A stretch of 64,000 bases of DNA from Desulfobacterales bacterium. GTDB taxonomy: Bacteria; Desulfobacterota; Desulfobacteria; Desulfobacterales; JAHEIW01. The translations under genes were made by a program, and so were the position numbers. Shown piece after piece: positions 20,429 to 54,227 of this stretch. The stretch spans positions 1-64,000 of the forward strand of contig JASJAN010000002.1 in the NCBI GenBank assembly GCA_030066985.1. The letters are read 5' to 3'. Each line of letters starts with the position of its first letter. Positions within the stretch are counted from its first letter, which is position 1. Under the pieces are notes generated by a model, which was not told where the DNA came from, ran no database searches, and worked only from the letters and a program-made list of their open reading frames with translations.

Positions 20429-20451
20429 TTAAAATTTACCTCTTTTTTCTA

Positions 20452-20595
20452 GAAGCCATCTCAAAAATGCACCTAACGCTCAAGGGCTGTGTTCAAAACC
20501 GATTCAAAATGCTCGAATACTATCGTGTATGCTCCACTTTTGAATCGGTTTTCGCCTTGCCCTTGAGCGTGATCTACTATTTTTGAGACGGCTTC
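20452..20595. repeat. Family B palindrome, copy 1 (144 bp)
   Basis: The whole element is one long imperfect hairpin. Ends GAAGCCATCTCAAAAAT and its near complement; centre ACCGATTCAAAA and TTTTGAATCGGT. Copies lie at 44255-44400 and 54084-54227, and an interrupted core at 6773-6842. Confidence 0.85.
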
Positions 20596-38092: not shown

Positions 38093-38179
38093 ATGATTAG
38101 CGAACAAAAAAATATCTTTATAAATGCTTTGAGAAATTGGTGGTGGCTCAGCTCTAAACTGGGGGCGAGCCTGCCATGA
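38093..38179 (+). CDS. trpL: trp operon leader peptide (28 aa)
   Basis: A 28-residue ORF with three consecutive Trp codons (38138-38146), in the segment LRNWWWLSSK. It lies upstream of trpE and is followed by two tandem terminators. A Trp-codon segment (38141-38149) can pair with 38167-38176. Part of that (38172-38178) can pair, with a bulge, to the terminator arm 38209-38216. Stalling at Trp codons when charged tRNA-Trp is scarce would favour readthrough, as in classical trp attenuation. Ribosome site is weak. Confidence 0.85.
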   Translation: MISEQKNIFINALRNWWWLSSKLGASLP

Positions 38180-38207
38180 TAGTGTAGTATTATAATTAAC
38201 CAATAAA

Positions 38208-38242
38208 CCGTGGGCACCTCCAGAAGGTCCCACGGTTTTTTT
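38208..38242 (+). terminator. trp attenuator terminator 1
   Basis: CCGTGGG (38208-38214) pairs with CCCACGG (38229-38235). An inner ACCT/AGGT extension follows across a one-base bulge, then seven T residues. It lies 28 bp after the leader peptide stop. Confidence 0.88.
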
Positions 38243-38257
38243 ATTTGCAAACTTTTA

Positions 38258-38290
38258 GGCCGAGGGACCATTCGTCTCTCGGCCTTTTTT
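38258..38290 (+). terminator. trp attenuator terminator 2
   Basis: An 11 bp stem (38258-38268 with 38274-38284, one G-T pair) is followed by six T residues, 16 bp before the trpE start. Two terminators in series would tighten shut-off. The same doubled design is found in the aro and phe leaders. Confidence 0.85.
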
Positions 38291-42836: not shown

Positions 42837-42938
42837 ACCCTGATGTCAGGGGTGGGGGGATGTTCAACTTCTGACAATAACCAAATGAGTTGCCGGGCAT
42901 GTCAATTTCTGTAAGGCGCTATGATTTTCAATGTGCCT

Positions 42939-43019
42939 GTGCCGCGATATTTGGGATTCCACCACCGCCATGGGTTTTATCAAATGCTGTGGTGCCCGTC
43001 ATCCCAAATATCGCGGCAC
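42939..43019. repeat. 19 bp perfect inverted repeat in the trpF-trpA gap
   Basis: GTGCCGCGATATTTGGGAT (42939-42957) and its exact complement (43001-43019) flank 43 bp. It occupies the place between trpF and trpA where trpB is usually found. Another small hairpin (TGTCAG and CTGACA) lies at about 42843-42877. No trpB remnant could be recognised in 42837-43209. Confidence 0.7.
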
Positions 43020-43209
43020 GGTGTTGCTCGGGGGGGTAATCATCGCCATAGCGCCATACAAAAAACGACATGTCCGGCTGACAACCGCAGCCATTGAGAT
43101 TAAATGAGGGGACCGGAATTTCGTTGATCGGTCGCTCCATGAATCATTAGCGACTTTCAGATGTTGCACAAAATACTTCTCGACCCCTTGATTATATAAG
43201 AGGAACGCG

Positions 43210-44007: not shown

Positions 44008-44034
44008 TTGACACCCCTTATTTGTTGATATAAT
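44008..44034 (+). promoter_or_regulatory. Promoter of the aro operon
   Basis: Perfect -35 TTGACA (44008-44013) and perfect extended -10 TGATATAAT (TATAAT at 44029-44034). The 15 bp spacing is short but the extended -10 compensates. The start would be near 44041, leaving about 34 nt before the leader peptide ATG. Confidence 0.75.
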
Positions 44035-44074
44035 AAGTTTCGAACTATTTTGGTGTTAAAAGGATTCAAAAATC

Positions 44075-44152
44075 ATGACGCAATCAGCAGGCAGAACCTT
44101 TTTTTATTTCTGGTATTTTTATTACGGTACCGGTCTGCCTGGAGTACGCTGA
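44075..44152 (+). CDS. Aromatic amino acid leader peptide (25 aa)
   Basis: ATG at 44075 with AAGGA 10 bp upstream. Residues 9-17 are FFYFWYFYY: four Phe, four Tyr and one Trp codon in an unbroken run (44099-44125). The tail is GTGLPGVR. The RNA can form 1:2 (44089-44098 with 44132-44140, one bulge), 2:3 (44132-44140 with 44188-44196) and 3:4 (44182-44188 with 44203-44209). A ribosome stalled in the aromatic run would free segment 2 to form the antiterminator. The leader thus reads charged Phe, Tyr and Trp tRNAs together. It controls DAHP synthase and the shikimate/tyrosine genes. Confidence 0.9.
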   Translation: MTQSAGRTFFYFWYFYYGTGLPGVR

Positions 44153-44181
44153 TTTAGCACACACATTTAAATAGCGATATC

Positions 44182-44214
44182 AGCCGCGGGCAGACCCAAG
44201 CTCGCGGCTTTTTT
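44182..44214 (+). terminator. aro attenuator terminator 1
   Basis: AGCCGCG (44182-44188) pairs with CGCGGCT (44203-44209), followed by a T-run. Its left arm abuts the antiterminator segment (44188-44196). Confidence 0.88.
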
Positions 44215-44221
44215 GTTTTAA

Positions 44222-44254
44222 AAAGCCGCGCTTATAAAATTCGCGGCTTTTTTT
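44222..44254 (+). terminator. aro attenuator terminator 2
   Basis: AAAGCCGCG (44222-44230) pairs with CGCGGCTTT (44242-44250), followed by T residues. Alternatively the right arm of terminator 1 and the left arm of terminator 2 can form an 11 bp hairpin (44203-44213 with 44220-44230) that would break both terminators at once. Confidence 0.82.
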
Positions 44255-44400
44255 ATAAGCTATCTTAAAAATGCATCTAACGCTCAACGGCTTTGTTCCA
44301 AACCGATTCGAAATGCTCGAATACTAGCGTGTATGCTCTGCTTTCGAATCGGTTTGCGCCGCGCCCTTAAACGTAATCTGCTATTTTTAAGACAGCTTAT
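44255..44400. repeat. Family B palindrome, copy 2 (146 bp)
   Basis: It starts directly after the second aro terminator and ends about 35 bp before the DAHP synthase gene. Ends ATAAGCTATCTTAAAAAT and its near complement. The centre (ACCGATTCGAAA, TTTCGAATCGGT) differs from copy 1 at paired positions, so pairing is kept while sequence changes. Confidence 0.85.
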
Positions 44401-44434
44401 ACTATAAAAAAGTAGAAGAATTGAGGGGAAGAAA

Positions 44435-45502
44435 ATGAAATCCACGACTGACGACCTGCGAATTAAGGGATACCAACCGCTGACAGCGCCGCACATTTTA
44501 AAAAATGAAATACCTATCAGCAACGCGGCCCATGAAACGGTTGTATCCGGAAGAAAAGACATTGAAGCGATCTTGCAGAAAAAAGATCGACGCCTGCTGG
44601 TGATTGTGGGGCCGTGCTCCATCCATGATGAAAAAGCCGCCCTGGAGTATGCATCCCGCTTGAACCAACTGCGCCAACAGGTGGCCGATACACTTTTGAT
44701 TGTCATGCGGGTCTATTTTGAAAAACCCCGCACCACCGTGGGGTGGAAGGGAATCATCAACGATCCCTACCTGGACGGCACCTGTGACATGACGGCCGGT
44801 TTGCGCAAGGCGCGCAATCTGCTCAAGCAAATAAATGGAATGGGATTGCCCGCCGCCACCGAGATGCTGGATACGATCACCGCGCAATATGTGGCCGATA
44901 TGGTCAGCTGGTCGGCCATCGGGGCCCGCACCGCCGAATCACAAACCCACCGGGAGCTGGCCAGTGGCTTGTCCATGCCGGTGGGGTTTAAAAACAGCAC
45001 AGACGGCAACTTATCAACGCCCATCAATGCACTGATGGCGGCCCGCGCTCCGCAAAGTTTTTTAGGGATCGACCAGGACGGCAAAACCTGTGTGGTTCAA
45101 ACCAACGGCAACCCCTGGGTGCATATTGTTCTGCGGGGCGGCAAACGACCCAATTACGATCCCATCAGCCTGGAAGAAGCGCGCTTGAGACTGATAGAAA
45201 AAGATCTGCCGGAAGCGATTATGGTCGATTGCTCGCATGCCAATTCGATGAAAAAATTCCAGGGCCAGTCGGTGGTCTGGAAAAGTGTGATTGGTCAGTA
45301 CCTGGACGGTAACGAAGCCTTGATCGGCTTGATGCTCGAAAGCAACCTGCATGAAGGCAACCAGCCTTTCACCGGCGATGCATCCACTTTAAAATATGGC
45401 GTGTCCATCACCGATGAATGCATTTCGTGGGAAACCACCGAGCAATTGCTGCTATGGGCGCATGAAAAACTGAAGGGTTATTTGAGATCAGCTGCAGCAT
45501 GA
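44435..45502 (+). CDS. aroG: DAHP synthase, type I alpha (AroG/F/H family)
   Basis: 355 residues, the size of the E. coli-like enzymes. VIVGPCSIHDEKAALEYA, RVYFEKPRTTVGWKG and IGARTAESQTHRELASGLSMPVGFKN are conserved and hold the PEP and erythrose-4-phosphate sites. MVDCSHANS carries the metal-binding Cys-His. First step of the shikimate pathway. Which amino acid inhibits it cannot be read safely. First structural gene after the aromatic-run attenuator. Confidence 0.94.
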   Translation: MKSTTDDLRIKGYQPLTAPHILKNEIPISNAAHETVVSGRKDIEAILQKKDRRLLVIVGPCSIHDEKAALEYASRLNQLRQQVADTLLIVMRVYFEKPRTTVGWKGIINDPYLDGTCDMTAGLRKARNLLKQINGMGLPAATEMLDTITAQYVADMVSWSAIGARTAESQTHRELASGLSMPVGFKNSTDGNLSTPINALMAARAPQSFLGIDQDGKTCVVQTNGNPWVHIVLRGGKRPNYDPISLEEARLRLIEKDLPEAIMVDCSHANSMKKFQGQSVVWKSVIGQYLDGNEALIGLMLESNLHEGNQPFTGDASTLKYGVSITDECISWETTEQLLLWAHEKLKGYLRSAAA

Positions 45503-45563: not shown

Positions 45564-46586
45564 ATGAAAACCATTGCCATCAACATAGATTCCAGCCCAT
45601 CGCGCATTTTAATCGCCGAGCGACTAGAGAATCTACAGCGTTACATTCCGGTGGCCAAGCCGATTATCGTCACCGATGTGAATGTCGGCAAACTGTATCC
45701 CCTGGATGCCATCGCCGGAGGCGTGATTACCATCGGTACCGGGGAGACAATTAAGACCCTGGACACCGTTGAAGACATCTACGCGCAGCTGCTATCTTTG
45801 CAGGCGGACCGCTCCGCGTTTATCGTCGGTGTTGGCGGCGGCATTGTCTGCGATATTACCGGATTTGCGGCATCTACGTTTATGCGTGGGGTGCGGTTTG
45901 GTTTTGTGGCCACCAGCCTGCTGGCCCAGGTGGACGCCAGCGTGGGCGGCAAAAACGGCGTTAATTTTCAAGGATACAAAAATATGGTCGGGCTATTTCA
46001 TCAGCCGGAGTTTGTCATCTGCGATCTTGAGGTATTAAAAACCCTGCCGCCCAGGGAAATTTCGTGCGGTTTGGCTGAAATCGTTAAACACGCGGCCATT
46101 GCGGATGCAGACCTTTTTGCCTTTTTAGAAGAACAAGCGGAAAGCGTACTGGCATTAGATCCCGAGGCGATCGAAAAGCTCGTGCTGAGATCGGTGGAAA
46201 TCAAATCGGCGATTGTCAGCCGCGACGAAACCGAAAAAGGCGAGCGCCGTTTGCTGAACTTCGGTCATACCTTTGGGCATGCTATTGAAAAGGTCAGCGG
46301 CATATCGCACGGCGAGGCGGTTAGCATCGGCATGGTGATGGCCGCGGCTTTATCGGTCAAAAGAGGTCTGCTGTCAGCACAGGAAGACCGGCGGCTGCGC
46401 GATCTGCTTGCAAAGCTGCAGCTTCCCAACGGCTTTGCTTCTGATCCGCAAAAAATTCTGGATGCTGTTACCAAAGACAAAAAAAAGGCCGGAGACCGCA
46501 TCCATTTCATTTTGCTCGCTGGAATTGGCAACGCCGTAGTGGAGCCCATCGCCATTGAAGAACTCGAGGAGGCCCTGTATGCCTGA
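45564..46586 (+). CDS. aroB: 3-dehydroquinate synthase
   Basis: 340 residues. NAD and substrate segments VGGGIVCDITGFAASTFMRG and VATSLLAQVDASVGGKNGVNF. The zinc ligands are in GLAEIVKHA and FGHTFGHAIEK. Converts DAHP to dehydroquinate. It overlaps the chorismate mutase gene by 8 bp. The N-terminus is shorter than in E. coli AroB but contains the nucleotide-binding half. Confidence 0.95.
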   Translation: MKTIAINIDSSPSRILIAERLENLQRYIPVAKPIIVTDVNVGKLYPLDAIAGGVITIGTGETIKTLDTVEDIYAQLLSLQADRSAFIVGVGGGIVCDITGFAASTFMRGVRFGFVATSLLAQVDASVGGKNGVNFQGYKNMVGLFHQPEFVICDLEVLKTLPPREISCGLAEIVKHAAIADADLFAFLEEQAESVLALDPEAIEKLVLRSVEIKSAIVSRDETEKGERRLLNFGHTFGHAIEKVSGISHGEAVSIGMVMAAALSVKRGLLSAQEDRRLRDLLAKLQLPNGFASDPQKILDAVTKDKKKAGDRIHFILLAGIGNAVVEPIAIEELEEALYA

Positions 46587-46893
46587 TTCAACTCTCGACA
46601 AACACGACAGCCAGCTGCAAGGCGACATTCCAACACTGCGCCTGGCCATCGATGAGATCGACGCGAAAATTTTGGATTTGATCAATCAGCGGCTTTTGCT
46701 GGCACAGCAAATCGGCGCGGCGAAAAAACAGGGCGGCATTCAGGTGACCGATCGTCAGCGCGAAAAAAACATCCTGGATCGTCTGCGACAAAAAAACAAC
46801 GGACCATTGGATGGCGATAGCCTGCAGGGTATTTTTGAAGCCATTATTGCCGCCGGCCGCAGTGTCCAAACAACAGGTCGAGGGTCAAAATGA
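46579..46893 (+). CDS. Chorismate mutase, AroQ class
   Basis: 104 residues from the ATG at 46579 (GAGGAGG upstream). All-helical CM_2 type: LRLAIDEIDAKILDLINQRLLLAQQIGAAK, then a distal RQREKNILDRLRQ helix, matching the active-site Arg/Lys/Glu pattern. It supplies prephenate for the tyrosine branch, since the TyrA here has no mutase domain. A separate mutase is fused in PheA. Overlaps aroB and abuts aroE. Confidence 0.88.
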   Translation: MPDSTLDKHDSQLQGDIPTLRLAIDEIDAKILDLINQRLLLAQQIGAAKKQGGIQVTDRQREKNILDRLRQKNNGPLDGDSLQGIFEAIIAAGRSVQTTGRGSK

Positions 46894-47705
46894 TCGATGC
46901 CCATACATCCCTTTTTGGCCTGATCGGCAACCCGGTGGCGCACAGCCTCAGCCCGGCAATGCACAATCAGGCGTTTGCAGCCACCGGCTGCAACGCGGTT
47001 TATCTGGCATTTTGCGTCTCAGACCCGGGTGCCGCAATCAAAAGCTTCAGGGCATTGAATGTGAGGGGACTCAGCGTCACCCTGCCCCATAAAGTGGCGG
47101 TTATGGAATCTCTGGATGACATTGATCAAACGGCTGCCGACATCGGCGCAGTAAACACCATCGTCAATCACAACGGCAAGCTGATCGGCTATAACACTGA
47201 CTGCCAGGGCGCTATCAAGGCCTTGCAGACCCAGACCACCATAGACGGAAAAGCGGTGGCGGTCATCGGTGCCGGCGGGGCGGCCCGGGCCATCGGCTTC
47301 GGGCTGGCAACTGTTGCCGAACGCCTGACAATTTTGAACCGCACCCGCAAAAGCGGTGAACGTCTGGCCGCCGATCTGCAGGCCGAATTTTTACCCATAA
47401 AAGAATGCCAGCCGAACCGTTATGACATACTGATCAACACCACACCGCTGGGCATGCATCCGGATACTGCGGCAACGCCGATCGCGAAACAAGCATTATC
47501 CAAAGAAATGGTGGTCATGGATATTGTTTATAATCCATTGCATACCCAGCTTTTAAAAGATGCCGCCGCTAAAGGATGCCGCACCATCGCCGGTCTGGAC
47601 ATGTTTGTCTTCCAGGGGGCGCTGCAATTTGAGCTGTGGACCGGCAAACAAGCACCGGTGGAAGTCATGCGAGCGTCAGTTTTAAAGGCACTAGCAAACA
47701 AATAG
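46890..47705 (+). CDS. aroE: Shikimate dehydrogenase
   Basis: 271 residues. Substrate motifs NPVAHSLSPAMHNQAF and LSVTLPHKVAV (catalytic Lys), the NTD motif in GYNTDCQGA, and the NADP Rossmann VIGAGGAARAIGFGLA. Reduces dehydroshikimate. The start ATGA overlaps the mutase stop. Confidence 0.95.
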   Translation: MIDAHTSLFGLIGNPVAHSLSPAMHNQAFAATGCNAVYLAFCVSDPGAAIKSFRALNVRGLSVTLPHKVAVMESLDDIDQTAADIGAVNTIVNHNGKLIGYNTDCQGAIKALQTQTTIDGKAVAVIGAGGAARAIGFGLATVAERLTILNRTRKSGERLAADLQAEFLPIKECQPNRYDILINTTPLGMHPDTAATPIAKQALSKEMVVMDIVYNPLHTQLLKDAAAKGCRTIAGLDMFVFQGALQFELWTGKQAPVEVMRASVLKALANK

Positions 47706-47902: not shown

Positions 47903-49162
47903 ATGAAAAAGATAAAAACACAAAAGATTGCCAATTGTCGCGTGGCGGTTCCCGGCTCAAAGAGCTATACACACCGCATGCTGATTGCCGCAGCTTTGGC
48001 AGACGGGGTGTCTGCCGTTAAAAACGCACTGATTAGTGAAGATACGCTATTGACCATGGAGGCCCTGCGGCAAATGGGGATTCCAATTGCCGTCAATGGT
48101 ATCGATGTGCGCGTTGAGGGTACCGGTGGTTGTTTGGCATCCTGCGCTGCGCCGATTGATCTGGGCAACTCCGGCACGTCCATGCGGCTGCTTGCCGGTG
48201 TGGCTGCGCTGGGCAAAGGAGCCTACATTCTGACCGGCAATGCCCGCATGCAAAAACGGCCGATACAGGATCTTCTAGATGCATTGCAACAAATGAATGT
48301 TCAGGCCCGATCGGTTAACGGCAACGGCTGTCCACCAATTGAAGTGAACGGCGCAATGATAAATGCTAAAAAGGTGGAGATTAACTGTCAAATCAGTAGC
48401 CAGTATCTTTCCGCCCTGCTGCTGATGGCACCACTCACTGCACGGGGACTTGACATTGAGGTGGTCGGCGGTCCGGTGTCCAAGCCCTATGTCGATATGA
48501 CCGTGGCCCTGATGGAAAGCTTTGGCATTGCGCTGGATCGCAAGGGCTATCAAAAATTTTTCATCCCCGGCGGGCAATCCTATCGTGCCGGCCGATACGC
48601 AGTTGAAGCGGATTGCTCCCAGGCAGCCTATTTCTGGAGCGCGGCCGCCATCAGCGGAACCCAAATAAAAGTGACGGGCATCAACAGCGCTTCACTTCAA
48701 GGCGATGTGCACTTTGTCGATTTGCTCGAACAGATGGGGTGTGGCGTTTCCAGGGAATCAGACGGCATTGCGGTTAGCGGTGGGTCGCTAAAGGCGATTG
48801 AAGCCGACCTGGCCGATATGCCCGACCAAGTGCCCACCCTGGCTGTAGTGGCCGCCTTTGCCCAGGGGACCTCCGTTATCAAAAACGTGGCGCATCTGAA
48901 ATCAAAAGAAAGCGACCGTTTAAGTGCCACGGTAACCGAGCTGAACAAAATGGGCATCGAGGCCAGCTGCACCCAAAACAGTTTGACCATCAGGGGAGGC
49001 CGGCCGCAGGAGGCGGTGGTTGAAACTTACAATGACCATCGCATCGCCATGAGTTTTGCCATCGTAGGTTTAAAGGTGCCGGGGATTCGTATTCGAAACG
49101 AAAGCTGTGTCGAAAAATCCTTTCCGACCTTCTGGCAAGTTTTTGAGGAATTATATCAGTGA
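47903..49162 (+). CDS. aroA: EPSP synthase (3-phosphoshikimate 1-carboxyvinyltransferase)
   Basis: 419 residues. VPGSKSYTHRMLIAAALA (the Lys/Ser/Arg of the PEP and S3P sites), GNSGTSMRLLAGVAAL, PDQVPTLAVVAAFAQG with the catalytic Asp, and LKSKESDRLSATVTELNKMG. GNSGTSMRL has Gly-Thr where class I enzymes have GNAGTAMRP; with the other motifs this points to a class II-type enzyme. Overlaps aroK (TGATG). Confidence 0.95.
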   Translation: MKKIKTQKIANCRVAVPGSKSYTHRMLIAAALADGVSAVKNALISEDTLLTMEALRQMGIPIAVNGIDVRVEGTGGCLASCAAPIDLGNSGTSMRLLAGVAALGKGAYILTGNARMQKRPIQDLLDALQQMNVQARSVNGNGCPPIEVNGAMINAKKVEINCQISSQYLSALLLMAPLTARGLDIEVVGGPVSKPYVDMTVALMESFGIALDRKGYQKFFIPGGQSYRAGRYAVEADCSQAAYFWSAAAISGTQIKVTGINSASLQGDVHFVDLLEQMGCGVSRESDGIAVSGGSLKAIEADLADMPDQVPTLAVVAAFAQGTSVIKNVAHLKSKESDRLSATVTELNKMGIEASCTQNSLTIRGGRPQEAVVETYNDHRIAMSFAIVGLKVPGIRIRNESCVEKSFPTFWQVFEELYQ

Positions 49163-49695
49163 TGAACCTTTTTTTGATCGGGTACCGCTGCAGTGGTAAA
49201 ACCACGGTCGGCAAATCGATTGCCAAAAAGCTTGGCTGGGCCTTTGTCGACGCAGATGCGATGCTGGTCGCAGCAAGCGGAAAAAACATTAAGGACATCA
49301 TCGACATCGATGGCTGGGCGTCTTTTCGCCGTATGGAGCATATAACGCTCACGCAGATCTGTGCAAAGAAGCGGCAGGTGGTGGCCACCGGTGGCGGCGT
49401 GGTACTCGATGCCGCCAACATCGCGGCCATGAAATCCAGCGGCCAGGTGATCTGGTTAAACGCAACGGCAGACACCATTCGCTCCAGGATGCAGGCAGAT
49501 GCCAACACCGAGCATTTACGACCGGCGCTGACCGACAGAGGAGCGCTGGCAGAAATCGAAAACCTGTTAACGGAACGCCGCCCGCTTTATGAACGTGCCA
49601 GTGATGTTCTTGTTCACACAGACGGCATCCCGGTGGCAGAAATTGCCAAACGGATCCTTGACAAGTTAAATGAGGGAAATGCTGATAAGCGTTAG
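49162..49695 (+). CDS. aroK: Shikimate kinase
   Basis: 177 residues from the ATG at 49162 overlapping the aroA stop. Walker A GYRCSGKTTVGK, DADAML for shikimate and magnesium, RRME (Arg for substrate), and ATGGGVVLD. A C-terminal LTERRPLYERASDVLV is typical. Phosphorylates shikimate before AroA. Here it follows aroA, as in many operon arrangements. Confidence 0.94.
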   Translation: MNLFLIGYRCSGKTTVGKSIAKKLGWAFVDADAMLVAASGKNIKDIIDIDGWASFRRMEHITLTQICAKKRQVVATGGGVVLDAANIAAMKSSGQVIWLNATADTIRSRMQADANTEHLRPALTDRGALAEIENLLTERRPLYERASDVLVHTDGIPVAEIAKRILDKLNEGNADKR

Positions 49696-49941: not shown

Positions 49942-51036
49942 ATGTCCAGTTCATTTGGCACCTTATTTCGCGTCACCACTTTCGGTGAGTCTCACGGTCA
50001 GGGCGTCGGGGCCGTGGTTGACGGTTGCCCCCCGAGAATATCGCTAAACGATGCCGATATCCAGCCCCAGTTGGACAGGCGGCGCCCGGCGCAGAGCAAA
50101 TTAACGACTTCAAGGGAAGAGGCCGACCGGGTTGCCATACTGTCCGGGGTCGACAACGGCATGACCCTGGGAACGCCCATCGCATTAATGGTTGAAAATA
50201 CCGATCAGCGACCGGGGGATTATCGCCAGATGCGCTCGATACCGCGACCCTCGCACGCCGATTATACCTACCAGATGAAGTACGGTATCCAGGCTTTGAG
50301 CGGCGGCGGGCGCGCCAGCGCCAGAGAAACCATCGGCCGTGTGGCCGCCGGTGCCATTGCCGAAAAATTTTTGAGCGAGCAATACGGGATAGACATTGTT
50401 GCCTGGGTCAACTCTGTTTCTAAGATCGAGGCGGCGCCGGCGGACATGTTGAATATTACACGCAATGATGTCGATCAGAATGCGGTGCGCTGCCCGGATG
50501 CATCCACAGCGGAAAAAATGATCACCGCGATCGAAAATGCAAAGGAGGCCGGCGATTCGCTGGGTGGCATTATTACGTGTGTCTGCCGCAATGTTCCCGC
50601 CGGGTTGGGCGAGCCGGTGTTTGACAAAGCAGAAGCCATGCTGGCCCAGGCCATGCTGTCAATTCCGGCGACCAAAGGCTTTGAAATCGGTTCGGGTTTT
50701 GCCGGTTCACGCATGCGCGGATCTGAACATAACGATGCTTTTATAAAAAAAGGGGCTCGACTGGGCACTGCAACTAATTATAGCGGGGGCATGCAGGGCG
50801 GCATCTCCAATGGTGAGCCGATTATTTTCAGGGTCGCCTTCAAACCCCCGGCCACCATTAGCCTACCGCAAAAAACCGTCGATTTTGAGGGCGCAGATAC
50901 GGTTCTGGAAGCCAAGGGGCGTCATGATCCCTGTGTGGTGCCGCGCGCCGTCCCCATTGTCGAAAGCATGGCGGCATTGGTGCTGGTCGACCTTACCCTG
51001 CGACAGAAGATGCGGGCCAATGAAACTATCAAATAA
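49942..51036 (+). CDS. aroC: Chorismate synthase
   Basis: 364 residues. Signature segments [18 protein letters not shown], the FMN loop [19 protein letters not shown], and [16 protein letters not shown]. Final step of the shikimate pathway, needing reduced FMN. GGAGG site 8 bp upstream. Overlaps the aminotransferase gene by 17 bp. Confidence 0.96.
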
Positions 51037-52150
51037 AATAAACGCCATATCTGGTTCACAAACTGTGGCCTTTACCACCCTGATTCAACAGTTGCAGCAG
51101 GAGGGCCGGCAGGTGATCGACCTGGCCGTGGGCGAGCCGCAGCTGGACACACCGGCAGCAGTGATCGAAGCCACCCAAAATGCGCTGACCGCCCAAAAGA
51201 CCCGCTACAGCCCGGCAAACGGTCTTTTAGAGCTTCGAACCCAGCTGGCACAGCAGTTTGACGGATGGGGTCTGGACAACATTCTCATTACTAACGGCGC
51301 CAAACAGGCCTTGTATATGATATTCCAGACAATCTGCGATTTTGCCGATGAGGTGATTGTCCCGGTGCCTTACTGGGTGAGTTTTGTCGAGCAGGTCAAA
51401 CTGGCCGGTGGCCACCCAGTTTTGGTGGCAACCCAGCATCATCAGCTCAATATCGCCGCCATTGAACAGGCGCTTACCCCGCGCGCAAAGGCCATTTTGA
51501 TCAACTCACCCAACAATCCCAGCGGAGCGGTCTATCCGATTGAGGACTTGCAACAAATCGCCCGGCTGGCGGCGGATCGCGACCTGTTTATTATCGCCGA
51601 TGAGGCCTATAACGCATTTGTTTATGACGGGGCTGTCGATAGGAGCATGTTCGACATCGAGGCCGCTCGCGACCGGTTAGTCGTGACACGCAGTTTTTCA
51701 AAAAGCTACAGCATGACCGGATTTCGCATCGGCTATGTTGCTGCACCGGCTGAAGTCATTGCCGCCCTGTCTAAAATTCAAAGCCATTTGACCGGCAATG
51801 TCTGCACCTTTGCCCAATACGGTGCCCTGGCAGCCCTGGCATTGGAAAAACAATGGCTAGCCACCCGGCAAGCAGACCTGCAGCATAAAAGAGATATGGC
51901 ATATGAACGCGTTTCCCAGATGTTCGACTGCCTGCAACCGCAAGGCGCCTTTTATCTTTTCCCGGACGTATCAAAGGCTTTAAAAAATGATGAAACATCG
52001 GAGGCGTTTGCTCGGCGAATTTTAGCGGAGGGCGGCGTGGCGGTGGTTGCCGGTGAGGCCTTTGGCATGGCCAAGCATCTGCGCATTTCCTTCGCGGTTT
52101 CAGAGGAAAATCTCATCAACGGACTAAAACGTATAGCAGAGGTAATATGA
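51020..52150 (+). CDS. Class I aminotransferase (aromatic or prephenate)
   Basis: 376 residues from the ATG at 51020 inside the end of aroC. PLP Lys in [27 protein letters not shown] and DEAYNAF. AspB-like fold I. By position with tyrA and chorismate mutase it probably transaminates prephenate to arogenate, or 4-hydroxyphenylpyruvate/phenylpyruvate to Tyr/Phe. Sequence alone does not decide. Overlaps tyrA by 4 bp. Confidence 0.85.
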
Positions 52151-52869
52151 TCGGCATTATTGGATTCGGACGTTTTGGAAAACTGGCCGCCAGGTATCTG
52201 GCCGAAGATTTTGAGGTCATGGTTTACCATCGAACCGACAAATCAACCGAGATCAAAAAATGCGGCGCCCGCACAGCTTCGCTCAAAGAGGTTTGCCGCC
52301 AGAAAATTATTATTTTATGTGTCCCGATTTCCAAATTGCAGGAGGTGCTCGTAGACATCGCACCGCTTCTGAAAGAGGGGGCTGTGGTTGTCGATGTCTG
52401 CTCGGTAAAAGTCTATCCGGTCCAGTGGATGCAGGAAATGCTGCCGAAAACGGTTTCGATTCTGGCCACCCATCCGATTTTTGGCCCCGACAGCGCTGCG
52501 GATTCTTTAAAAGGCCACAAAATCTTTATCAGCCCAATCCGTATCGATACCAACCATTATCAAAAGGTCAAAACCTATCTGGCATCAAAAGAATTGGTTC
52601 TAATCGAATCTACCCCGGAGGATCATGATGAGCAGATCGCTGTCAGCCTGGCGCTGACCCATTATATCGGCAGAAGCCTATCAGAGTTTGGCGCAGCGCC
52701 GCTCGGTATCGACAGCGAGGGGTATAAACGCTTGCTGCATATCCTGGAGGTGGTTGAAAACGACACCTGGCAACTGTTTCATGACATGCACCATTATAAT
52801 CCGTATGCCCAGGAAAAACGGGTCACGTTTATGCAGGCTATGCGAAAAATTGATGATCAGTTAAATTAG
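52147..52869 (+). CDS. tyrA: Prephenate/arogenate dehydrogenase
   Basis: 240 residues, short for TyrA (usually 280-370). NAD-binding [29 protein letters not shown] and ALTHYIGRSL with the catalytic-type His. No chorismate mutase or ACT domain. The free mutase gene and an aminotransferase are in the same operon. The small size resembles arogenate-type or minimal dehydrogenases. Substrate choice unresolved. Confidence 0.85.
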   Translation: MIGIIGFGRFGKLAARYLAEDFEVMVYHRTDKSTEIKKCGARTASLKEVCRQKIIILCVPISKLQEVLVDIAPLLKEGAVVVDVCSVKVYPVQWMQEMLPKTVSILATHPIFGPDSAADSLKGHKIFISPIRIDTNHYQKVKTYLASKELVLIESTPEDHDEQIAVSLALTHYIGRSLSEFGAAPLGIDSEGYKRLLHILEVVENDTWQLFHDMHHYNPYAQEKRVTFMQAMRKIDDQLN

Positions 52870-53156: not shown

Positions 53157-53615
53157 ATGCCTGACAATGCAAAGCATTTAAAAATCTTAGTTATTCATGG
53201 ACCCAACCTCAACATGCTCGGCATGCGGGAGCCGGAAATATACGGCCATCAAAGCCTGGAGGAAATAAACGAAGCACTACGGGCGCAGGCAAAGCAGCTG
53301 GGTCTGGCGGTGGAAACCTTTCAGTCCAATCATGAAGGCGAAATGGTCGACCGGATTCAGAAGGCAAACGACGCCTTTGATGGCATAATTATCAATCCGG
53401 CGGCCTACACCCACACCAGTGTCGCCATCCGGGATGCGCTTTCGATGCTTACGATACCGATTGTTGAGATCCATCTTTCCAACATCAACAAACGGGAATC
53501 TTTTCGGCATACCTCCTTGATGGCCGATATTGCCACAGCCCGCATTGCAGGATTCGGGGCCCAGGGGTATCAGCTCGCACTGGAAGGGGTGGCACATTTG
53601 CTGTACGTGGATTAG
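53157..53615 (+). CDS. aroQ: 3-dehydroquinase, type II
   Basis: 152 residues. Signature HGPNLNMLGMREPEIYG (active-site Tyr and Arg), QSNHEGEMVD, NPAAYTHTSVAIRDAL and EIHLSNINKRESFRHTS (His). A dodecameric class II enzyme that dehydrates dehydroquinate. It supplies the step missing from the operon before it. CAGGAGC ribosome site. It may be co-transcribed across the family D repeat or have its own promoter. Confidence 0.96.
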   Translation: MPDNAKHLKILVIHGPNLNMLGMREPEIYGHQSLEEINEALRAQAKQLGLAVETFQSNHEGEMVDRIQKANDAFDGIIINPAAYTHTSVAIRDALSMLTIPIVEIHLSNINKRESFRHTSLMADIATARIAGFGAQGYQLALEGVAHLLYVD

Positions 53616-54083: not shown

Positions 54084-54227
54084 GAATATGTCTCAAAAAT
54101 GCATCTTACGCCCAATGCCTGCGTTAAAAACCGATTCAAAATGCTCGAATACTGTCGTGTATGCTCCACTTTTGAATCGGTTTTCGCCTTGCCCTTGGAC
54201 GTAATCTACTATTTTTGAGACATATTC
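54084..54227. repeat. Family B palindrome, copy 3 (144 bp)
   Basis: It begins 5 bp after the second phe terminator. The ends GAATATGTCTCAAAAAT are a perfect 17 bp inverted repeat. Between attenuator and gene, as with copy 2. Confidence 0.85.

Follow-up and report, generated by a model that had tools for sequence, protein, structure and literature searches.

A conserved leader rich in aromatic codons upstream of the DAHP synthase gene of a Desulfobacterales bacterium: a probable ribosome-mediated attenuator of the common aromatic pathway

Introduction

The attenuators of the Escherichia coli operons pheA (leader pheL), pheST and trp (leader trpL) are built on one plan: a leader, a helix 1:2, an antiterminator 2:3 and a terminator 3:4. 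Leaders of the ilvGMEDA type contain several branched-chain codons, through which more than one amino acid is sensed for a shared pathway.

As far as the aromatic pathway is concerned, the following systems are closest to the one treated here: (i) in Corynebacterium glutamicum, the aroR leader with the residues Phe-Tyr-Phe precedes the DAHP synthase gene aroF (PMC11802643, PMC4046766), and aroR is reported to respond to Phe, the availability of Tyr being without effect (PMC11802643); (ii) in Acholeplasma, the upstream ORF uORFC-13-1, which contains Phe, is described before aroF (PMC8632094); (iii) for E. coli aroF, an attenuator was hypothesised by Camakaris in 1980 (cited in PMC2659441 and PMC8632094); and (iv) in a survey of proteobacterial regulons, attenuation is mentioned for the trp and pheA genes of gammaproteobacteria, E. 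coli included (PMC5343134). The first two are alike to the present case: aroR-aroF, as described, combines Phe and Tyr leader codons before a DAHP synthase gene with ribosome-mediated attenuation, and uORFC-13-1 is presented as a Phe-bearing ORF that is followed by a terminator and a gene for DAHP synthase (PMC8632094).

The present work concerns a stretch of 64,000 nucleotides (hereafter, the window) of contig JASJAN010000002.1 from the Desulfobacterales assembly GCA_030066985.1, in which an attenuator with mixed Phe, Tyr and Trp codons had been predicted before aroG from the letters alone. The window has the aroR-type trait: the leader that precedes its DAHP synthase gene contains both Phe and Tyr codons. 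The original prediction held that known attenuators respond to Trp or Phe and drew its novelty from this, a statement which is too strong in view of aroR and uORFC-13-1.

The Leader Region in the Window

In the window, a trpE-G-D-C-F-A cluster (38.3-44.0 kb; trpD, C, F and A named by eye) is followed by a gap of 463 nt between trpA and aroG, and then by the aro cluster (Table 1). The aromatic leader sits inside this gap: an ORF of 25 codons, from an ATG at 44075 to a TGA at 44150-44152, which reads four Phe, four Tyr and one Trp codon without interruption, exactly as predicted in both sequence and coordinates. From the leader stop to the aroG start there are 282 nt. The ribosome site and the extended -10 element that had been claimed can likewise be read directly from the sequence; the spacing between TTGACA and the extended -10 element, measured by eye, is 15 nt, and the promoter scan, which covers spacings of 16-18 only, does not list it. 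Regarding the "complete shikimate operon" of the prediction, the gene content is right (aroQ being named by eye), but the operon itself is a predicted one.

Table 1. Position of the leader elements and of the aro genes in the window.
Feature	Position	Strand	Basis
Promoter-like TTGACA (44008-44013) and extended -10 TGATATAAT (44026-44034)	44008..44034	+	Read from sequence
Shine-Dalgarno-like AAGGA	44060..44064	+	Read from sequence; 10 nt 5' of ATG
Leader peptide ORF, MTQSAGRTFFYFWYFYYGTGLPGVR then stop	44075..44152	+	ORF list and translation; upstream ORF conserved in relatives
Arm 1 (protector; partner arm 2)	44089..44098	+	Whole-leader fold; covariation analysis
Sensor run F F Y F W Y F Y Y	44099..44125	+	Nine aromatic codons
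Arm 2 (partner arm 1 or arm 3)	44132..44140	+	Complementarity; covariation of 2:3 and 1:2; geometry
Terminator 1 (44182-44191/44200-44209 and T run)	44182..44214	+	Terminator scan; helix 3:4 covariation
Arm 3, antiterminator part (partner arm 2)	44188..44196	+	Helix 2:3 covariation
Terminator 2 (44220-44230/44242-44252 and T run)	44220..44254	+	Terminator scan; folds
aroG, DAHP synthase type I-alpha	44435..45502	+	TIGR00034, 474 bits (cut-off 173)
aroB	45564..46586	+	Family scan
Chorismate mutase (CM_2)	46579..46893	+	Family scan from 46597; start uncertain
aroE	46890..47705	+	Family scan
aroA (EPSP synthase)	47903..49162	+	Family scan
aroK	49159..49695	+	ORF list, family scan
aroC	49942..51036	+	Family scan
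Class I/II aminotransferase	51020..52150	+	Family scan from 51026; start by eye
Prephenate dehydrogenase-like (tyrA)	52147..52869	+	Family scan
Probable type II 3-dehydroquinate dehydratase (aroQ)	53157..53615	+	ORF, named by eye

The helices share their arms. Helix 1:2 (44089-44098/44132-44140) contains a single bulged A; helix 2:3 (44132-44140/44188-44196) consists of nine pairs, including one G-U; and helix 3:4 (44182-44188/44203-44209) can be extended to the ten pairs of terminator 1, after which comes the T run. The 5' arm of terminator 2 (arm 5) is, besides, complementary to arm 4 over 11 pairs (44203-44213/44220-44230). Three mutually exclusive hairpins had been predicted: helix 2:3 indeed excludes both 1:2 and 3:4, but the latter two coexist in the fold of the whole leader, which is 1:2 + 3:4 + 5:6. 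This region is more stable than expected (z-score -4.2, a stability equalled by none of 200 shuffles). When arm 1 is masked, the window folds into 2:3, and when arm 2 is masked, into 3:4 + 5:6. As long as no ribosome is present and arm 4 has not yet been made, 2:3 rather than 1:2 is the fold of minimum energy. A further, inner antiterminator helix (44148-44153/44179-44184) can be drawn in the window and was rejected as a general feature, given that only 52% of its cells are paired and that it displays no covariation.

No Rfam family reaches its gathering threshold in the window, T-box included. Of the matches that fall short, Leu_leader (24.8 of 50 bits, E 0.006) covers the tandem terminators only (44178-44254), and Thr_leader and the trpB motif stay at 15.1 of 55 and 21.6 of 59, respectively. 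On 12 related loci, the same scan returns a cobalamin riboswitch only.

Other elements of the window deserve description. A palindromic, MITE-like repeat of about 148 bp is present in three copies (44254-44401, 20450-20594 and 54091-54222; 83-86% alike to the first), each directly after a T-rich stretch and two of them behind terminator-like hairpins. Its first copy lies between terminator 2 and aroG and may thus explain the longer distance between leader and aroG in the window. Before trpE, a classical trpL, MISEQKNIFINALRNWWWLSSKLGASLP, is found (38093-38285) with three Trp codons (WWW). Two terminators come after it, near 38208 and 38258, and by eye the 5' arm of the second is approximately complementary to the 3' arm of the preceding one, a feature shared with the aro leader. 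Between trpF and trpA (42837-43209), no trpB-like ORF was found. The best match to TIGR00263 in the whole genome (144 bits, cut-off 392) is located on another contig (G000 C37:1422-2453), and upstream of this gene there is an ORF of 17 codons with four aromatic codons in nine (TFFFNKRF) and no Trp run.

Conservation of the Leader Upstream of aroG

A protein search of 40 genomes, that of the window included, yielded 17 aroG genes in 16 genomes. Upstream of 15 of these 17 loci (the window counted) lies a Phe/Tyr-rich leader, with runs such as FFYYGYFYF, YYFYFWYYF and FYFYFWYFYF in the relatives. The two aroG genes without a leader directly adjoin coding sequence which reads, by eye, as aroC and aroB, so that they are apparently placed inside operons.

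A wider scan was applied to the best 80 of 144 aroG loci from named genomes, mostly records of Desulfobacterales, Desulfobacteraceae and "Deltaproteobacteria". A leader was defined as an ORF of 12-45 codons, at most 600 nt upstream, with at least six aromatic codons in nine, for which at least 150 nt of upstream DNA are required. Among these best 80, such a leader is present at 73 of 79 loci, compared with 5 of 79 on the reverse strand and 4 of 395 mononucleotide shuffles; the remaining six loci stay below six aromatic codons in nine, and four of them have four or fewer. The leaders before aroG in related genomes that the original prediction called for have been found in both samples. In addition, the box TTGAC occurs within 100 nt upstream of 68 of 73 aroG leaders vs. 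6 of 73 reversed sequences (one of the 74 aligned rows, with short upstream DNA, being left out).

A covariance model, R1, was built from the 15 aroG leaders, the window among them; in this alignment, one row (L002) starts within its start codon. With E up to 0.01, R1 has a plus-strand match in 76 of the best 80 of 144 loci, and 75 of these 76 begin at most 450 nt before the aroG match, the one at L065 being located some 1.7 kb upstream of its aroG. All 15 weak minus-strand matches overlap plus-strand ones.

Covariation and Geometry of the Stems

Among the 15 leaders, helix 2:3 is 93.9% paired with three double-change pairs, and helix 3:4 is 95.3% paired with five. The larger alignment contains 74 leaders (73 distinct sequences), namely the window and 73 of the 80 loci, seven below E 1e-6 being left out; they partly share genomes with the 15 that built R1. 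This alignment was fitted to helices 1:2 and 3:4. In it, double changes are distributed as follows: (i) helix 3:4, 96.0% paired, has them in 6 of 10 pairs and 59 cells (17.9 in shuffles); (ii) helix 2:3, 91.3% paired, in 5 of 9 pairs and 18 cells (6.2 in shuffles); and (iii) helix 1:2, 83.2% paired, in 4 of 6 pairs and 20 cells (5.3 in shuffles). None of 500 shuffles reaches these cell counts in any of the three helices; the number of double-change pairs is reached by 77 of 500 shuffles for 1:2 and by 38 of 500 for 2:3.

When the partners are slid against each other, pairing falls to 25-52% across the three helices (29-46% for 1:2). Slid versions of 3:4 and 2:3 give at most eight double-change cells. 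For 1:2, a slide of +2 gives 18 cells and one of +3 gives 17, vs. 20 in the true register, and the covariation score is higher at +2 (0.149) than in register (0.138). Since these slid controls covary as much, helix 1:2 rests on its pairing percentage. As helix 2:3 was absent from the aligning model, its covariation is not an effect of the fitting. The covariance check proposed for the three stems has succeeded for 3:4 and 2:3; 1:2, which a slid control equals, is less clearly supported. Covariation thus links arm 3 to arm 2 as well as to arm 4, the behaviour that a switch should show.

The position of the run relative to the arms was followed in 70 of the 74 rows, aligned on the Leu codon of arm 2, in which at least five aromatic codons are found among the 18 before that codon in an open frame (L103, L065, L121 and L092 were left out). 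Aromatic residues reach 40-93% at positions -3 to -12, i.e., 9-36 nt upstream of the Leu codon, but 1-4% at the two positions next to it (-1 and -2); farther upstream, at -13 to -15, they amount to 16-27%. In 59 of the 70 leaders, the stop codon starts 15 nt downstream of the first base of this Leu codon. Given the size of the ribosome footprint, stalling at most positions of the run would place the ribosome over arm 1, with arm 2 left free, and a ribosome at the stop would lie over arm 2.

Tandem Terminators and Folding Order

A second terminator (hairpin and T run, by our own criteria) is present in 31 of the 74 aroG leader loci. In these 31 tandem-terminator loci, the fold with arm 2 masked displays 3:4 + 5:6 in 29, and the equilibrium fold with arm 1 masked contains 2:3 in only 15, the terminator outweighing 2:3 in stability in most of the other 16. 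Given that many loci lack 2:3 at equilibrium, antitermination would have to be kinetic, and the switch would depend on the order of folding.

It may be speculated that one antitermination event disables both terminators of the window by a relay, in which 2:3 would free arm 4, arm 4 would pair with arm 5, and terminator 2 would be pre-empted. The minimum-energy fold of the window with arm 1 masked is indeed 2:3 + 4:5 (-46.6 kcal/mol), and in its own genome of 5 Mb the stem pattern used matches solely these two terminators. Duplexes between arm 4 and arm 5 average -16.1 within genomes vs. -14.8 between them, a difference reached by none of 500 shuffles in a statistic that ignores kinship. The relatives lend the relay weak support: its fold is seen in only 6 of the 31 loci, the window included, and controls in which the second hairpins are swapped give 3.0 on average and at most 6.

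Spread of the Leader and Genes Behind It

With E up to 0.001, R1 has a match in 161 of 395 genomes sampled from the phylum, including two (G000 and G015) used in building it. In the phylum of a SAR324 record, 3 of 52 genomes are matched, and in that of a Hydrogenedentota record none of 68, an empty result which alone shows little. The three SAR324-phylum matches are strong (75-92 bits; L253 from G430, locus L105; L250 from G436, locus L097; and L260 from G482) and possibly reflect transfer or binning.

An ORF with at least five aromatic codons in nine accompanies 100 of the 110 best R1 matches. Named by their best BLASTP match to 19 reference proteins, the genes behind these 110 belong to the chorismate pathway in 84 cases: ADHS (32), I-beta DAHP synthase (26), aroG (12), aroK (12), aroC (1) and chorismate mutase (1). 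The rest comprises ABC transporter binding proteins (10), aminotransferases (2) and 14 genes unassigned by the 19 references. One example of each of the two commonest was checked against NCBIfam, and both exceed their cut-offs: ADHS with TIGR01949 (373 bits, cut-off 299) and I-beta DAHP synthase with TIGR01361 (404 bits, cut-off 268). The ORF after ADHS, cut by the end of the locus, matches 3-dehydroquinate synthase II below cut-off (278 of 392).

The leader counts for I-beta DAHP synthase come from matches chosen by R1. For ADHS, a sample independent of the model was taken (every third of the first 115 listed; 37 of 38 usable, one being short of upstream DNA): 20 of 37 have at least six aromatic codons in nine, whereas the reverse strand gives 1 of 37 and the shuffles 0 of 185; 12 of the 37 genes have three or fewer.

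Five operons were compared gene by gene. L267 reads leader, aroG, aroB, chorismate mutase, aroE, aroA, aroC, aminotransferase and tyrA. L264 and L265 read leader, ADHS, DHQ synthase II, chorismate mutase, aroE, aroA, aroK, aroC and a tyrA-like gene, and L266 reads leader, ADHS, DHQ synthase II, aroE and aroA, with no match to chorismate mutase. L268 has the leader and aroG without the remaining operon genes. With R1, which was built from aroG leaders, the ADHS leaders score 120 bits at L264 and 105 bits at L265, and both end in TGLPxVR. Judging from these sequences, a like leader and operon backbone carry either aroG plus aroB or ADHS plus DHQ synthase II, the entry module belonging to the alternative pathway. 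AroG and I-beta DAHP synthase are distant relatives (24-25 bits), and ADHS matches aldolase families. The presence of such leaders before alternative entry enzymes, the other operon genes being kept, suggests a regulation that outlived the enzymes regulated. The most far-reaching reading, a single phylum-wide sensor of "any aromatic short" for the trunk, kept while the entry module is swapped and extended in the window by a relay that disables both terminators, is put forward tentatively and is, taken as a whole, rather unlikely.

Some leaders precede genes of other kinds. Phe/Tyr-rich leaders are found before an ADP-forming acyl-CoA ligase-like gene at L140 (partial NCBIfam match) and, by eye, at L154; before metallo-hydrolase-like genes at L171 and L193 (by eye); and, at L207, before a protein without NCBIfam match.

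Codon Content and the Signal Sensed

Of the 70 aroG leaders, 64 contain both Phe and Tyr codons, and 34 contain a Trp codon. For both amino acids, one codon is more dominant in the leaders than in the aroG genes: TTT vs. TTC is 212 vs. 33 in leaders and 337 vs. 225 in aroG, and TAT vs. TAC is 241 vs. 67 in leaders and 325 vs. 287 in aroG. The mix of codons tracks the downstream gene. Mixed Phe, Tyr and Trp codons precede the genes of the common pathway (the trunk); the leaders of ABC transporter binding proteins contain 47 Phe, 5 Tyr and no Trp codons (in the 7 of 10 leaders that pass); a WWWW leader precedes a TrpB-like gene (L195); and another lies upstream of an indolepyruvate:ferredoxin oxidoreductase alpha gene (L181), 366 nt away, with an ORF of 101 codons in between. 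That codon content follows the downstream gene speaks for a real sensor, the likely input being Phe and Tyr and, in many of the genomes, Trp as well. Sensing of all three amino acids is plausible from the codons, Phe and Tyr being the best supported of the three candidate signals. "Senses all three at once", as originally worded, is overstated: the Phe and Tyr part agrees with the 64 of 70 leaders, but Trp is found in only about half of them, and Tyr is reported without effect in C. glutamicum.

In practice, the same attenuator could answer to one effective signal, either Phe alone or Phe together with Tyr, in which case the Trp codon would be incidental. This possibility is to be taken seriously, even if we hold it to be somewhat short of an even chance. 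It agrees with the reported behaviour of aroR (Phe-Tyr-Phe), which responds to Phe and not to Tyr, with the absence of a Trp codon from 36 of the 70 aroG leaders, and with the separate WWW leader that Trp has before trpE in the window. However, Trp codons recur among the best R1 matches (21 of 24 leaders of I-beta DAHP synthase, 10 of 12 of aroK, 9 of 12 of aroG and 13 of 29 of ADHS), and the Trp codon of the window is placed in the middle of the run, where a stalled ribosome should cover arm 1.

As to the transporters, Phe-dominated leaders stand before an ABC transporter substrate-binding protein at L036, L132, L133, L142, L146, L153, L180, L192, L205 and L209, of which three have fewer than five aromatic codons in nine; the binding protein at L036 matches the branched-chain type far below cut-off (51 of 477 bits). 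These leaders suggest an aromatic amino acid transporter, and the WWWW leaders at L181 and L195 hint at a biosynthetic role of indolepyruvate:ferredoxin oxidoreductase.

Proposed Mechanism and Alternative Explanations

In the window, a run of product codons in a short ORF, a terminator 3' of this ORF and before aroG, and an antiterminator that uses one of the terminator's arms are all found. The leader, its run, the arms and terminators, their conservation, the covariation of 3:4 and 2:3, the placement of run and stop, and the phylum-wide location before pathway genes are taken directly from the sequences; we infer from them that transcription starts at the window promoter, that the leader is translated and the ribosome stalls, in which order the helices fold and in which direction the operon responds. 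The original prediction of ribosome-mediated attenuation is strongly supported by conservation, covariation and position, and the aro leader is very probably a transcription attenuator that couples the expression of the operon to the charging of aromatic tRNAs.

Transcription would start between trpA and aroG, and a ribosome would translate the leader. Two situations can be foreseen: (i) with plentiful charged Phe- and Tyr-tRNA (probably Trp-tRNA as well), the ribosome would reach the stop and cover arm 2, terminator 1 (3:4) would form and transcription would end before aroG, terminator 2 acting as a back-up; and (ii) if one charged aromatic tRNA were short, the ribosome would stall in the aromatic run and cover arm 1, arm 2 would then pair with arm 3, terminator 1 would be blocked and the operon transcribed. 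Without translation, 1:2 would form first and termination would follow.

Besides attenuation in cis, the terminated leader RNA or the peptide might additionally act in trans, as is reported for peTrpL of Sinorhizobium (PMC7298713). Working attenuation should always yield a short terminated RNA, but the leader peptide differs between genomes, and such an added function is improbable. Still less probable is a TnaC-like arrest by the nascent peptide, in which the C-terminal TGLPGVR or the aromatic peptide would stall the ribosome and a free metabolite would be sensed: the C-terminal residues do recur across many leaders, but the TGLPGVR stretch is encoded by the DNA that forms arm 2, the pairing of which accounts for this conservation, and the aromatic positions swap F and Y between leaders. 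Finally, that the tandem terminators 3' of trpA only insulate the aro genes from the upstream trp operon, the ORF being a chance open frame, is hardly credible, for although the neighbourhood is rich in terminator-like sites (37 in 17 kb vs. 22.2 in shuffles), the aromatic upstream ORF at 73 of 79 loci, the recurrent TTGAC box and the covarying antiterminator all speak against it.

Ribosome-mediated attenuation thus read would provide a concrete, testable regulator of the aromatic trunk in a large group of anaerobes, for which no attenuator is described in the literature searched. Leaders with mixed codons offer a way to ask how one ribosome-based sensor integrates several amino acids. Besides, the class could receive a family model of its own and could suggest an aromatic connection for poorly named genes (of transporters, aminotransferases and acyl-CoA ligases) that lie behind leaders of this kind.

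Comparison With Known Systems

The aro leader shares its architecture with the pheL, pheST and trpL attenuators of E. coli. These respond to one amino acid each and control terminal branches or a synthetase, whereas the aro leader stands before the common trunk and carries mixed codons. Leaders of the ilvGMEDA type differ from it in that they belong to another pathway and another phylum.

Within the open-licence PMC literature searched, the class is undescribed; the papers in which an earlier account is most to be expected (Lopatovskaya 2010, Neshat 2014, Vitreschak 2004) lie outside that scope. The main text of Naville and Gautheret 2010 (PMC2965389) contains none of the terms Desulfo, Geobacter, aroA, aromatic, phenylalanine and deltaproteobacteria, and the available portions of PMC1262725, PMC1183508, PMC4162548 and PMC4833913 hold no description of such leaders.

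The two nearest relatives differ from the class as follows: (i) C. glutamicum aroR, set apart here by its published description, carries Phe-Tyr-Phe and belongs to another phylum, whereas the class of the window mostly has 6-9 aromatic codons in nine; and (ii) uORFC-13-1, according to the available account, is characterised by at least one Phe residue, comprises 24 unique sequences and belongs to another lineage (PMC8632094). In any case, the mechanism is a classical one; the features that appear to be new are a multi-aromatic input at the level of the trunk, a distribution across the phylum and the association with alternative entry enzymes.
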